DNA from: an uncultured Burkholderiales bacterium
GTDB lineage: Bacteria > Pseudomonadota > Gammaproteobacteria > Burkholderiales > Burkholderiaceae_D
Reading direction: 5' to 3'
Length of the DNA stretch: 20,317 bases
Assembly (NCBI GenBank): GCA_903904635.1
Contig: CAIVDH010000024.1
Coordinates: 1-20,317 of the forward strand
Of this stretch, positions 3,006-7,892 are shown one piece after another. Numbering within the stretch: position 1 is the stretch's first letter; the number at the start of each line of letters is the position of its first letter. A program made the translations under genes and the position numbers. Under the pieces are notes generated by a model. That model was not told the origin of the DNA, searched no databases, and saw only the letters and a list, made by a program, of their open reading frames with translations.

Positions 3006-3962
3006 ATGAAAGTTATTTTTGCTGGTACCCCTGAATTTGCCGCAGTCGCACTCGCAGCGCTGCATGAGTCTGGTTTTGAGATTCCCCTGGTGTTGACCCA
3101 GCCGGATCGTCCGGCCGGCCGTGGCATGCAGTTGCATCCATCGGCAGTCAAGCAATTTGCGCTCGAACACCAGATACCCGTTGCCCAGCCAGTCTCATTG
3201 CGCCTTGATGGCAAATATCCGCAAGAAGCGAAGCAGGCATTAGAACTTTTGCAAGCGACCCCACATGATGTGATGGTCGTTGCGGCCTATGGTTTGATAT
3301 TGTCGCCAGCCGTACTGCAAATTCCGCCACTAGGTTGCCTCAATATTCATGCCTCGTTGCTGCCGCGCTGGCGTGGTGCTGCACCTATACATAGGGCTAT
3401 TGAAGCAGGTGATGCCCAGACTGGCATCACCATTATGCAAATGGATGAGGGGCTCGATACCGGCGCGATGCTGCTGGCAGAGACTGAGCAGATTCGCGAG
3501 GATGACACCACCGCTAGTTTGCATGACCGGCTCGCCGCGCTGGGCGGTCGTATGATCGTTGAGGCGCTGCACAAGCTGGCAGAGGGTGGGTTAAAGGCGG
3601 TGCAGCAGCCATATGCAGGCATTACCTATGCTGCAAAAATTACAAAAGATGAAGCGGCGCTGGATTTTCGTTTACCGGCAAAAATTCTATTGCGGCGCAT
3701 ACGCGCATTTAATCCCTTTCCCGGCGCCAGTGGTCAAGCGTCGGGCATGGTGCTAAAAATCTGGCGCGCCGAGCACTCCACTAGCCAAGGGCGACCTGGC
3801 GAAATTCTGGAAATTACGCCCGCTGGTGTCGTGCTGGCTTGCGGAGAAGATGCGTTATTGCTCACTGAGTTGCAAAAACCTGGCGGCAAGCGCCTCGCTG
3901 CTACTGAATTCCTCAAAGGTTACCCACTCGCGCCGGGCCAGCAGTTCGAAGTCGATTCTTGA
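3006..3962 (+). CDS. fmt: Methionyl-tRNA formyltransferase
   Basis: Fmt transfers a formyl group from 10-formyl-tetrahydrofolate to Met-tRNA(fMet), making initiator tRNA. The 318-residue protein has the N-terminal formyltransferase Rossmann domain (about 1-185) and the C-terminal OB-like tRNA-binding domain (about 205-312). Catalytic residues are visible: Asn113 and His115 in the [12 protein letters not shown] segment, and Asp151 in the [10 protein letters not shown] segment. The GTPEF motif is at 7-11. Length is normal. The ATG at 3006 has no obvious Shine-Dalgarno sequence, but no better start exists. It follows def in the same direction. Its stop (3960-3962) lies only seven bases before the TATAAT that I assign to metH, so the metH promoter overlaps the end of fmt. 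Confidence 0.97.
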
Positions 3963-3969
3963 ATTCACG

Positions 3970-3975
3970 TATAAT
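3970..3975 (+). promoter_or_regulatory. Predicted metH promoter, -10 element TATAAT
   Basis: A perfect TATAAT lies eight bases after the fmt stop. Standard spacing predicts transcription start at about 3982, which is the first base of helix P1 of the riboswitch described next. No strong -35 is present; TTCGAA at 3945-3950 inside fmt is the nearest candidate, with a long 19-base spacer. The coincidence of predicted start and aptamer start is the main support. Confidence 0.5.
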
Positions 3976-3981
3976 TTGTCA

Positions 3982-4058
3982 GCGCCGATTTGATTGAAAA
4001 AGTCAAAACCAGCTTGCGGGCGCCGGGCTAAAGCCCATATAAATCCTGCTAAAGCGGC
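3982..4058 (+). promoter_or_regulatory. SAM-II family riboswitch aptamer in the metH leader
   Basis: The conserved blocks of SAM-II (metA motif, SAM_alpha) appear in order: helix P1 5' strand GCGCC (3982-3986), GAUUU (3987-3991), AACC (4007-4010), three bases, UUGC (4014-4017), one base, P1 3' strand GGCGC (4019-4023), AUAAAU (4039-4044), three bases, GCUAAA (4048-4053), two bases, GG (4056-4057). UUGC can pair with GC and AA of GCUAAA around a flipped U4050, CC (4009-4010) with GG (4056-4057), and G4012-C4013 with G4054-C4055, which rebuilds the pseudoknot. Two hairpins are inserted compared with the short SAM-II RNA I remember: 3992-4004 in loop 1 and GGGC-UAAA-GCCC (4025-4036) in loop 3. 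The match was made from memory, without a covariance search. Position before metH fits SAM feedback on methionine synthesis. Confidence 0.8.
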
Positions 4059-4063
4059 GCGCG

Positions 4064-4096
4064 AACCCGGCCCAGCTTTTGCAGGCCGGGTTTTTT
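4064..4096 (+). terminator. Intrinsic terminator (probable attenuator) in the metH leader
   Basis: AACCCGGCC (4064-4072) pairs perfectly over nine bases with GGCCGGGTT (4084-4092) across an 11-base loop, and T4091-T4096 form the U run. It lies after the riboswitch aptamer and 37 bases before the metH ATG, so it can stop transcription ahead of metH. GCCGGG (4022-4027), which overlaps the 3' strand of aptamer helix P1 and the inserted hairpin, can pair with CCCGGC (4066-4071) and would act as the antiterminator. It could also simply end fmt transcripts. Confidence 0.85.
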
Positions 4097-4133
4097 GTTT
4101 TCCAGACTCCAGATCAACACAGACACAGATCCA

Positions 4134-7100
4134 ATGAAACGCGACGCCACCTCACAAACTGAAGCTCATCTCCGCGATCTGCTGACTAAACGCATTTTGA
4201 TTCTTGATGGCGCAATGGGCACCATGATTCAGCGTTATAAGTTGACTGAAGAATCCTATCGTGGTGAGCGTTTCGCAGATTTTTCTGTGCCGGGCAAAGA
4301 GCTTTTTGTCAAAGGTAACAATGAGTTGCTGACGCTGACGCAGCCGCATATCATCAGCGCCATTCATGAACAATATCTGGCTGCTGGTTCAGACCTGATT
4401 GAAACCAATACCTTCGGCGCGACTACGATAGCGCAAGATGACTACCACATGGCCCATCTGGCTTATGAGATGAATCTTGAGTCGGCACGCTTGGCGCGTG
4501 CAGCCTGCGATAAATATTCCACGCCTGACAAGCCGCGCTTCGTTGCGGGCGCACTTGGCCCCACTCCCAAGACCGCTTCTATTTCGCCGGATGTAAACGA
4601 TCCAGCTGCCCGTAACGTCACCTTTGATCAGCTGGTAATCGCTTATTTAGATCAGACCCGAGCGCTGGTTGAAGGCGGTGCTGATGTACTGCTGATAGAG
4701 ACCGTGTTTGATACGCTTAATTGCAAGGCAGCGCTGTTTGCAGTTGATCAGTTTTTCGAAGAGAGTGGGCAGCATCTTCCCATCATGATTTCCGGAACCG
4801 TGACCGATGCGTCCGGTCGTATTTTGTCCGGTCAGACAGTCACCGCTTTTTGGAATTCTGTACGACATGCCCGGCCGCTGACCATAGGATTAAATTGCGC
4901 GCTCGGTGCTGCACTGATGCGACCTTATGCAGAAGAGCTTTCTAAAATCGCCGAGACATTTGTCTGCATTTATCCCAATGCCGGATTGCCCAATCCTATG
5001 TCGGACACCGGGTTTGATGAAACGCCGCCGGTTACATCATCCCTGCTGAAAGATTTCGCCGAGAGTGGATTTGTCAACATAGCCGGTGGCTGCTGCGGCA
5101 CCACGCCTGAACATATCAAGGCCATCGCTGATACGGTAGCCAATATCCATCCGCGCCATATACCTACGCATCTGCACGAGATGCGGTTGTCAGGTCTGGA
5201 GCCTTTCGTCATTGATGAAGATTCCTTGTTCGTTAATGTGGGAGAGCGTACCAACGTCACGGGCTCCAAAGCATTTGCACGACTCATACTTAATGAGCAA
5301 TACGATGAGGCATTGGCTGTTGCGAGGCAGCAGGTTGAGAATGGCGCACAGATCATTGATATCAATATGGACGAAGCGATGCTGGACTCAGTCGCAGCGA
5401 TGACCCGCTTTTTGAATCTGATCGCATCTGAGCCGGATATTGCACGCGTGCCCATCATGATTGACTCTTCAAAATGGTCGGTCATCGAAGCGGGTTTGAA
5501 ATGCGTACAGGGTAAAGCGATTGTCAATTCCATCTCGCTCAAAGAAGGCGAACCAGAATTTCTGCGCCAGGCAAAATTATGCCGACGCTATGGCGCTGCC
5601 GTGATTGTGATGGCGTTTGATGAACAAGGTCAGGCTGATACTTTTGCACGTAAGACGGAAATTTGCGCGCGAGCTTATAAGCTCTTGGTTGAAGAGACCG
5701 GATTTCCGCCTGAAGATATTATTTTTGATCCGAATATTTTTGCGATCGCAACAGGTATAGAAGAGCACAATAATTACGCGGTAGATTTTATTAATGCGAC
5801 ACGCTGGATACGTGAGAATTTACCTCATGCAAAAATTAGTGGCGGTGTGTCGAATGTAAGTTTTTCTTTCCGCGGTAATGATCCCGCACGCGAAGCAATA
5901 CACACCGTATTTTTGTATCACGCGATACAGGCCGGTATGAGTATGGGTATTGTCAACGCCGGCATGGTTGGCGTGTATGACGATCTGCCAGCCGAGCTCA
6001 AGGAGCGTGCCGAGGATGTCGTGCTCAATCGCCGCGAAGATGCAACTGAGCGCATGATAGAAATTGCTGCCACATTAAAAGCCGGCGGCAAAAAAGAAGA
6101 ACAAAATCTTGAATGGCGCGCAAACCCTGTTGAAAAGCGACTCGCGCATGCGCTGGTGCATGGCATCACGCAATGGATAGTTGAAGATACCGAAGAGGCG
6201 CGCGCGCATCACGCCGCAATCGGCGGCCGTCCTATTCATGTGATCGAAGGCCCGCTGATGGATGGCATGAATATCGTCGGTGATTTATTCGGACAGGGAA
6301 AAATGTTTTTGCCGCAGGTCGTGAAATCTGCGCGTGTGATGAAGCAGGCCGTGGCGCATTTGATACCTTACATAGAAGAAGAAAAGCAGCGCGAAGAACA
6401 GCGCACTGGTGTGGCCGCCAAACCCAAAGGAAAAATCGTCATTGCTACCGTTAAAGGTGATGTGCACGATATCGGCAAAAACATCGTATCGGTTGTACTG
6501 CAATGTAATAACTTCGAAGTCGTTAACATGGGCGTGATGGTGCCCTGCGCTGAAATTCTGGCGCGGGCGAAAGCGGAAAATGCGGACATCATAGGCTTGT
6601 CCGGACTGATTACGCCATCACTGGAAGAAATGACACATGTCGCCAAAGAGATGCAGCGTGATCCGCATTTTCGTGGCTTGAAAACGCCGCTATTAATCGG
6701 TGGCGCAACGACCAGTCGTGCGCATACTGCGGTCAAAATTGCGCATCATTATGATGGTCCGGTGGTTTATGTGCCGGATGCGTCACGTTCAGTGTCGGTT
6801 GCGCAATCGCTCTTAACGCCCGAACATCGCGACAGTTATATCGCCGAAATCGATGCGGACTATGCGCGTATTCGCGAGCAGCATGCCAATAAAAAAGCCG
6901 TACCGATGTTGCCGCTTGCGGCTGCACGAAAAAATAAAATGCAGCTTTCTTTTGATGGAAAACATGCGCCTGTCAAACCAAAATTCATAGGTCGCAGGCA
7001 TTTCCGTAATGTCGATCTGGCGACGCTGGCGCAATACATAGATTGGGGTCCATTTTTTCAGACTTGGGATTTGGCCGGGCCTTTTCCCGCGATCCTCACG

Positions 7101-7892
7101 GATGCGATAGTGGGACAGTCGGCCAGTACGGTCTACCGCGAAGCGCAGGCTTTATTGAAAAAAGTGATAGAAGGTCGCTGGCTGACCGCCAATGGCGTGA
7201 TGGCGATTTTGCCTGCCAATAGCATTAATGATGATGATATCGAGGTTTACACAGATGAGACGCGCAGCGAAGTGGCGTTCACTTATTACGGTTTGAGGCA
7301 GCAAACTGAAAAGCCGATCATTGATGGCGTGGCGCGTCCGAATCAGTGTCTGGCAGATTTTATCGCGCCTAAATCTTCTGGCGTAGAAGACTATATCGGT
7401 TTGTTTGCTGTCACCGCTGGCATAGGTATAGAGAAGTATGAAAAGCGCTTTGAAGATGCGCATGATGATTATTCATCGATCATGTTGAAGGCATTGGCAG
7501 ACCGTCTTGCTGAAGCGTTTGCAGAGCATTTGCATGAGCGTGTACGCAAAGATTTATGGGGCTATGCAAGCGATGAAACATTATCGAGCGAAGCATTAAT
7601 TAAAGAAGCTTACCGTGGCATACGTCCTGCGCCTGGTTATCCTGCTTGCCCCGAGCATACTGTGAAAGCCGATGTGTTCCGAATACTGGAGTGCGAAGAC
7701 GTAGGCATTAGCCTTACTGACTCGTATGCGATGTTCCCTGGGGCAGCGGTGTCGGGTTTCTACTTCGCGCATCCGGAATCAAAATATTTTACGGTGGGTA
7801 AAATCGGCGAAGACCAGTTGCGTGATATGGCAGCGCGTCGTGGTGAGAGCATTGAACAATTGCAGAGCTGGCTTGCGCCTAATTTGTCTTGA
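4134..7892 (+). CDS. metH: Cobalamin-dependent methionine synthase
   Basis: MetH transfers a methyl group from 5-methyl-tetrahydrofolate via methylcobalamin to homocysteine, making methionine in the cytoplasm. The 1252-residue protein has all four modules. The homocysteine domain carries zinc ligands Cys255, Cys320 and Cys321 ([10 protein letters not shown]). The pterin domain carries [11 protein letters not shown] from 368. The cobalamin domain carries DVHDIG at 776-781, with His778 as the lower axial ligand. The C-terminal reactivation domain binds SAM through [12 protein letters not shown] from Arg1164. The ATG at 4134 is chosen; a TTG at 4095 is in frame but falls inside the terminator U run. 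No strong Shine-Dalgarno is visible. It is preceded by a SAM-II-like riboswitch with attenuator, so high SAM should lower expression. Its stop is only four bases from the convergent amidotransferase gene. Confidence 0.98.

Follow-up and report, generated by a model that had tools for sequence, protein, structure and literature searches.

The window, a stretch of 20,317 nucleotides from an uncultured Burkholderiales bacterium, carries on its plus strand the gene fmt (open reading frame 3006–3962, stop codon TGA at 3960–3962; TIGR00460, 292.5 bits against a cut-off of 201.5) and, downstream of it, the methionine synthase gene metH (4134–7892; TIGR02082, 1708.9 bits against a cut-off of 1010.85), whose open reading frame has an ATG at 4134 and an in-frame TTG at 4095. 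The original prediction placed a SAM-II-type riboswitch with two inserted hairpins before metH, and the family match bears out that assignment of the downstream gene. Likewise, the claim that the SAM-II consensus blocks are all present and ordered held up, since inspection of the sequence reveals a whole SAM-II pseudoknot core at 3982–4057 on the plus strand. In particular, the 5′ strand of P1, GCGCC (3982–3986; assigned from the sequence, the nested fold, alignment to relatives and covariation of P1 across a broader, hand-chosen set), is followed by the conserved L1 segment GAUUUGA (GATTTGA, 3987–3993), which has three conserved U residues in the sequence and in the consensus among relatives; by the 5′ strand of P2, CC(A)GCUUGC (4009–4017, comprising CC at 4009–4010 and GCTTGC at 4012–4017; sequence and covariation); by the 3′ strand of P1, GGCGC (4019–4023; alignment to relatives and covariation); by the L3 segment AAAU (AAAT, 4041–4044; sequence and alignment to relatives); and by the 3′ strand of P2, which is GCTAAAGCGG in DNA letters and GCUAAAGCGG in the RNA (4048–4057; consensus and covariation). 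Within this last strand, U4050 is presumably the ligand-facing U, as in SAM-II structures. The conserved SAM-II blocks GAUUUG, CUUGC and GCUAAAG are all present in the window, and we would place in them, by our own reading, the six conserved uracil residues that SAM-II RNAs carry (PMC1273637).

The spacing within the core (TTGC, one nucleotide, GGCGC; AAAT, three nucleotides, GCTAAAG) is that of the short forms found in relatives, which agrees with the prediction that the consensus spacing is kept apart from the inserts. The ordered set GATTTG, CTTGC and GCTAAAG occurs once in the window, both strands counted, and never in 200,000 shuffles of single letters across the leader (3963–4133). Strands complementary for P1 and for the P2 pseudoknot are found in the window, as is the final 3′ pairing between CC at 4009–4010 and GG at 4056–4057, and the predicted pseudoknot pairs can form (the folding was nested, and the pseudoknot is predicted from complementarity). 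Note that the nested minimum pairs 3982–3986 with 4056–4060, which we set aside as apparently incidental; the sequence past GCGG varies among the listed relatives.

BLASTN with the leader matched 36 genomes of the 96 searched, a number that includes the window's own, with two genomes (G023 and G031) matching by the terminator alone. We also used a covariance model, R1, made from 40 sequences of Burkholderiales that include the window sequence and its kin; the R1 scores of the window and its kin are not independent, whereas matches outside the order are. R1 found the element in most genomes examined of the order (185 of 250, E ≤ 0.01), in 136 of 195 genomes of the family (E ≤ 0.001) and in 29 of 299 genomes of the phylum (E ≤ 0.001). 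Four of the last lie outside the class, and these have SAM_alpha scores of 30.7–35.8 bits, just below the cut-off. From 110 R1 elements that remained once duplicates, weak matches and matches inside metH coding DNA were removed, and from a further 42, all but nine and two, respectively, could be parsed, giving 141 parsed elements. The gene that follows is metH in 76 of these, metX in 31, metZ in 20 and another or undetermined in 14, such that methionine genes follow 127 of the 141, in a sample skewed to metH, many loci having been fetched with the window leader or with MetH. (Gene classes were assigned by clustering and BLASTP, and NCBIfam bore out the names for representatives of full length: L045, L033 and L222 are MetX, at 666–687 bits against a cut-off of 560, and L046 is MetZ, at 722 bits against a cut-off of 522. 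L033 was assigned to metX by eye and later confirmed by NCBIfam; two of the 76 metH loci, L011 and L015, have no open reading frame before the locus end and were assigned by the leader alone.) Among the best 80 named metH loci, 13 have an element of at least 45 bits and one more has a weak 22-bit match. The 13 include Oxalobacteraceae MAGs, a Herminiimonas MAG, Noviherbaspirillum pedocola, Undibacterium terreum, Accumulibacter and Methyloversatilis; the Massilia, Duganella, Janthinobacterium and Herbaspirillum loci among these best 80 are without an element of that score. The core blocks are kept in the metH leaders of many relatives, a conservation on which the original prediction had made itself depend.

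No Rfam family reaches its gathering score anywhere in the window, and no SAM family matches 3900–4150 even at E ≤ 10. Because the window falls short of the gathering score of RF00521 (SAM_alpha), which is 36, we refer to the element as a SAM-II-type variant rather than as a member of that family. The scan with this model that had been proposed as a check was thus negative for the window and positive for some insert-free relatives. SAM_alpha exceeds its cut-off in two of 56 relatives' genomes; the element before metZ in L043 scores 45.2 bits, the insert-free element before metH in L081 scores 39.4 bits, and L206, likewise insert-free, is also above the cut-off at 36.2 bits. Three short elements with the same core as the window (L049, L065 and L050) score about 32 bits. 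Eight more SAM_alpha places in the 56 relatives, at 26–35 bits, coincide with R1 places, and one (G078:C13, 29.5 bits) is not among the R1 matches listed. Note that at E ≤ 10 some SAM_alpha match occurs in all 56 relatives and in 13 of 14 control genomes, so weak matches are meaningless by themselves. In a set of 18 loci picked to cover the range of forms, SAM_alpha finds all five insert-free metH elements (29.2–39.4 bits, one above 36) and, at E ≤ 1, none of the 13 insert-bearing ones. Thus, the inserts, not a different core, best explain why Rfam is silent on the window, and the SAM-II assignment is supported by a core equal to that of insert-free relatives that Rfam scores as SAM_alpha.

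Covariation, which had been put forward as a further check, supports P1 and P2 in a diverse set and is absent from the metH forms. In 16 diverse members, P1 and P2 contain four pairs with two-sided changes, a number reached by one of 500 shuffles, and their covariation score is equalled by none of 500. (Both this set and the set of 29 metH forms that follows were chosen by hand, and one of the 16 members, L052, seems out of register at P1.) In 29 aligned double-insert metH forms, chosen from 61, the core blocks are invariant; covariation is uninformative for P1 and P2 there because both never vary.

Two hairpins interrupt the core, one in each loop. The predicted L3 hairpin, GGGC-UAAA-GCCC, folds as claimed at 4025–4036, right after the 3′ strand of P1. 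The predicted L1 hairpin is also present in the fold, with an extent larger than the 3992–4004 that had been proposed: its stem pairs 3989–3995 with 4001–4007 (feature 3989–4007), such that the conserved UUUGA pairs with the AGUCAAA of the insert. Both inserts occur in 61 of the 76 metH elements. Inserts were folded one by one and compared with shuffles because the MAFFT alignment lost the register of the stems; partners were set by the fold, which favours pairing. By this measure, distinct L3 inserts outperform shuffles at p ≤ 0.05 in 32 of 55 cases for metH and in 22 of 26 for metX (23 of the 55 miss this level singly), and at p ≤ 0.2 in 52 of 55 and 26 of 26, respectively. The outer three-pair stems are of 13 kinds in metH and nine kinds in metX elements, with GC, CG, AU, UA and GU pairs all represented.

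The L1 inserts behave differently before the two genes. In metX elements, 12 of 14 reach p ≤ 0.05 against shuffles, and their stems include several that are unrelated to one another, whereas the metH L1 insert seldom folds by itself (3 of 32 distinct forms). When the conserved AUUUGA that precedes it is included, 30 of the 32 forms beat shuffles at p ≤ 0.05. Moreover, UCAA, the complement of UUGA in the core, is found in 44 of 44 distinct metH L1 inserts (5.8 expected after shuffling), a conservation that could be inherited, the sequences being related; the pair next to UCAA/UUGA is U-G in 34, C-G in four and U-A in four, and is unpaired in two. In the 29 chosen metH forms, no pair of the L1 helix is altered on both sides and 318 of 500 shuffles score as high, so the L1 hairpin, unlike P1 and P2 in the diverse set, is not proven by covariation. 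The UCAA/UUGA pairing may be a self-masking element of the ligand pocket. A tentative reading, which we hold to be possible rather than probable, is that the metH form is a self-masking aptamer in which an L1 competitor (UCAA, mostly GUCAAA) pairs with the uridines of the pocket and SAM displaces the hairpin; together with the different L1 hairpin of the metX form, a single cell would then possess two SAM-II switches, each with a threshold of its own built in.

The L1 insert also bears on a different reading, that the aptamer is that of SAM-II and that the inserts, chiefly the UUUGA-pairing L1 insert, shift the ligand, for example to S-adenosylhomocysteine (SAH), or abolish binding. When paired, the insert could hide two or three of the conserved L1 uridines, and MetH uses homocysteine, which is close to SAH. 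Against this reading, no core block varies among the 29 double-insert metH forms chosen from 61; a second copy of the element stands before metX in the window's genome, with the same core, another L1 hairpin and an L3 hairpin; and that genome also contains a separate SAH riboswitch (G000:C305:5204–5280, L262; 64.5 bits), no gene being visible downstream of it in the short sequence examined. We therefore regard a changed or lost ligand as improbable and retain SAM as the putative ligand.

Two features additional to those originally described flank the core. The first is a TATAAT at 3970–3975, 6 nt before P1, which is likely a −10 box and which recurs in relatives: a TATAAT-like hexamer lies no more than 25 nt upstream in all 57 distinct double-insert metH elements, and it is 6–7 nt from P1 in 58 of 61 hexamer-bearing metH elements of any form. 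(A consensus scan of the window recognised no plus-strand −35/−10 pair.) Its position predicts a transcription start close to the first nucleotide of P1. The second is an intrinsic terminator at 4063–4096, with arms GAACCCGGCC and GGCCGGGUUU and a U tract at 4091–4096; the fold of 4060–4096 has −21.1 kcal/mol and a z-score of −4.13. This assignment rests on the fold, as the consensus scan did not report a plus-strand terminator. Terminators were detected at 132 of the 141 parsed elements, leaving nine without one.

The 5′ arm of the terminator contains CCCG (4066–4069), complementary to CGGG at 4017–4020, an invariant segment within P1 and P2 of the pseudoknot that straddles P2b and P1. CCCG is present in all 103 distinct element-linked terminator 5′ arms and in 24 of 141 control arms, a comparison in which the control terminators were chosen more strictly (5 T, −10 kcal/mol, 6 or more pairs) than the linked ones (4 T, −8 kcal/mol) and came from the collected loci at large, some gammaproteobacteria among them. 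Kinship inflates this statistic; the arms otherwise differ, with the base after CCCG being G in 48, A in 24, T in 19 and C in 12. The complementarity suggests antitermination, and CGGG would be a concrete antiterminator candidate for terminator-type SAM-II switches, whose mechanisms were not yet experimentally established as of a 2007 survey (PMC2258182). In nested folding, the terminator state (−49.3 kcal/mol) is about 13 kcal/mol more stable than a state with a forced antiterminator (−36.2 kcal/mol), which means that any switching would need to be under kinetic control. When the transcript ends before the 3′ arm (3980–4075/4076), the free minimum is −30.0 kcal/mol and pairs the terminator arm with GCCG at 3984–3987, in the 5′ strand of P1, rather than with CGGG; the forced pairing CGGG/CCCG reaches −24.8 kcal/mol, about 5 kcal/mol weaker than that minimum, and GCCGGG/CCCGGC reaches −27.4 kcal/mol. 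In transcripts ending at 4072–4080 the arm is partly paired upstream, with a mean probability of 0.35–0.49.

These observations suggest the following scheme. In a transcript that begins near the first P1 nucleotide, abundant SAM would clasp P1 and the P2 pseudoknot and hide the invariant CGGG, such that the downstream hairpin CCCGG..CCGGG would form and transcription would stop before metH. At low SAM, a freed P1 strand would pair with the 5′ arm of the terminator and permit readthrough into metH; by the family-wide rule this strand would be CGGG (4017–4020), and here perhaps also GCCGGG (4022–4027) or GCCG (3984–3987). The L3 hairpin probably stacks beneath P1, and the L1 hairpin, through its strand complementary to the UUUGA of the pocket, probably rivals SAM and so tunes the threshold. 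An alternative, slightly less probable even than a changed ligand, is that the terminator is constitutive, the aptamer is decaying and metH is expressed by occasional readthrough. The hairpin is indeed strong, and the nested fold of the full leader settles in the terminator state; the invariance of the core over 29 distinct forms, though the inserts vary, and the CCCG in 103 of 103 arms argue against a decaying aptamer.

We consider it very likely that the leader is a SAM-II riboswitch whose two loops each carry an inserted hairpin, and that it probably acts as a transcriptional OFF switch for metH. The computations show that the core is homologous, that the L3 hairpin recurs and the L1 hairpin can form, that a terminator follows, that CCCG in the arm goes with CGGG in the core and that the element is linked to methionine genes; the ligand (SAM), the direction of control, the antiterminator and the function of the hairpins are inferred. 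The two inserts and the possible self-masking loop would be what is new here; the class, the putative ligand and the presumed logic would be ordinary.

The Rfam family RF02424 (Bp2_287) derives from Bp2_Cand287, a proposed cis element for methionine metabolism (PMC3521395), and is modelled on the strand opposite to the methionine-gene-strand elements described here. All 19 of its matches in 120 genomes of the order (L210, L211, L220, L263 and 15 others) lie antisense on R1 elements, 16 as placed by comparison with the R1 listing and three by separate checks, and one of the 19 is above the family's own cut-off. It may thus be that RF02424 was modelled on the wrong strand. The converse, that the element in the window is an opposite-strand small RNA of the kind that RF02424 annotates in Burkholderia, we judge to be very improbable: the minus strand of the window has a weak RF02424 match (15.2 bits, cut-off 70), a terminator-like site at 4026–4009 (one found, 0.4 expected in the consensus scan) and a promoter-like site at 3982–3955 (one found, 0.1 expected), but this last site is directed away from the element, the terminator, −10 box and methionine genes suit the plus strand, and SAM_alpha matches the methionine-gene strand in relatives. 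That the blocks, which are short and on which Rfam is silent in the window, were assembled by chance can be rejected as next to impossible given the 200,000 shuffles and the retention of the core before metH in many relatives.

The RNA in the window shares with SAM-II (RF00521) P1, the P2 pseudoknot, the blocks GAUUUG, CUUGC and GCUAAAG, a predicted start near P1, a terminator and methionine genes; it differs by its two inserted hairpins and scores below the reporting threshold. Terminators follow many SAM-II representatives, for which an OFF switch was suggested (Corbino 2005, PMC1273637), and in the window, too, a terminator lies between P2 and the open reading frame of a methionine gene. 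In Sinorhizobium meliloti, where two SAM-II switches were tested in vivo, a terminated small RNA from the metZ SAM-II increases at high SAM (PMC9373788); that switch is likewise of the terminator type, and loop hairpins are not mentioned in the available text of that study. The suggestion that the enlarged form might be a distinct subtype because its host is a betaproteobacterium was not supported. Bordetella bronchiseptica is among the aligned SAM-II RNAs of Corbino 2005 (PMC1273637), betaproteobacterial SAM-II RNAs with terminators are mentioned by Barrick and Breaker 2007 (PMC2258182), and Beta- is among the groups with SAM-II in Meyer 2009 (PMC2704228). Moreover, inserts appear and vanish inside one homologous family (short, L1-only, L3-only and double forms), so that we regard them as the sign of a lineage-specific variant within one riboswitch rather than of a separate class. 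SAM-V (RF01826) has a similar pseudoknot and similar ligand-contacting bases but is without the final 3′ pairing (PMC2704228) that the window has. SAM-II long loops (RF01726), whose name implies enlarged loops, is described from Bacteroidetes and marine sequences (Weinberg 2010, PMC2864571). Neither the SAM-V model, with which a scan had been advised, nor the RF01726 model has a match above cut-off in 20 relatives or any match in the window's genome at E ≤ 1, and both were rejected as the identity of the element.

Rfam profiles gave SAM_alpha only in Rhizobiales and Rhodobacterales in the comparative study of Leyn 2014 (PMC4239095), which describes a new metXZ element in most betaproteobacteria studied and, in the available text, does not call it SAM-II or name metH as a target. 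By that text description, the metXZ element would share with the RNAs found here metX and metZ leaders, a pseudoknot of conserved regions, a non-conserved terminator and a proposed antiterminator, one that was speculated to be broken by SAM; our metX and metZ members fit the description, and the two are probably one. In the literature as partially covered, we found nothing that links the metXZ element or RF02424 to SAM-II or that describes these loop hairpins. Three records (SAM-II, the orphan metXZ element and the Burkholderia small RNA family RF02424) would thereby be tied to one RNA family, one now extended to metH, and the inserts account for why Rfam misses the forms that bear them.

Several further arrangements were seen among the R1 matches. 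Weak matches (20–25 bits) antisense in metH coding DNA, at about 3580–3690 on the minus strand in L166, L182, L165, L177 and others, are probably due to chance. Two SAM-II-type elements stand in tandem before a small protein in L044 (1507–1743), L068 (1501–1737), L075 and L082; the second copy has GATTTAA (GAGTTAA in L082) and AACTTGC, and a MATE efflux transporter follows in L044 and L082 (TIGR00797, above cut-off). (Tandem SAM-II has already been published; PMC9481103.) A GATTTAA/AACTTGC variant, which appears to have an L3 hairpin, precedes a short conserved protein, without an NCBIfam match, in L205, L207 and L208, which belong to the same class and lie outside the order. One 2.3 Mb genome of the family (G303; L242 and L243) has six R1 matches, with two nearby copies in L243. 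In G043, a metH element (L029/L040) has about 130 extra nucleotides in loop 3 and is matched by R1 in two pieces. Finally, a manganese riboswitch match of 44.1 bits (cut-off 45; L202:2319–2451, minus strand) lies upstream of a SAM-II-type element that precedes metX, under 1 kb away from it.
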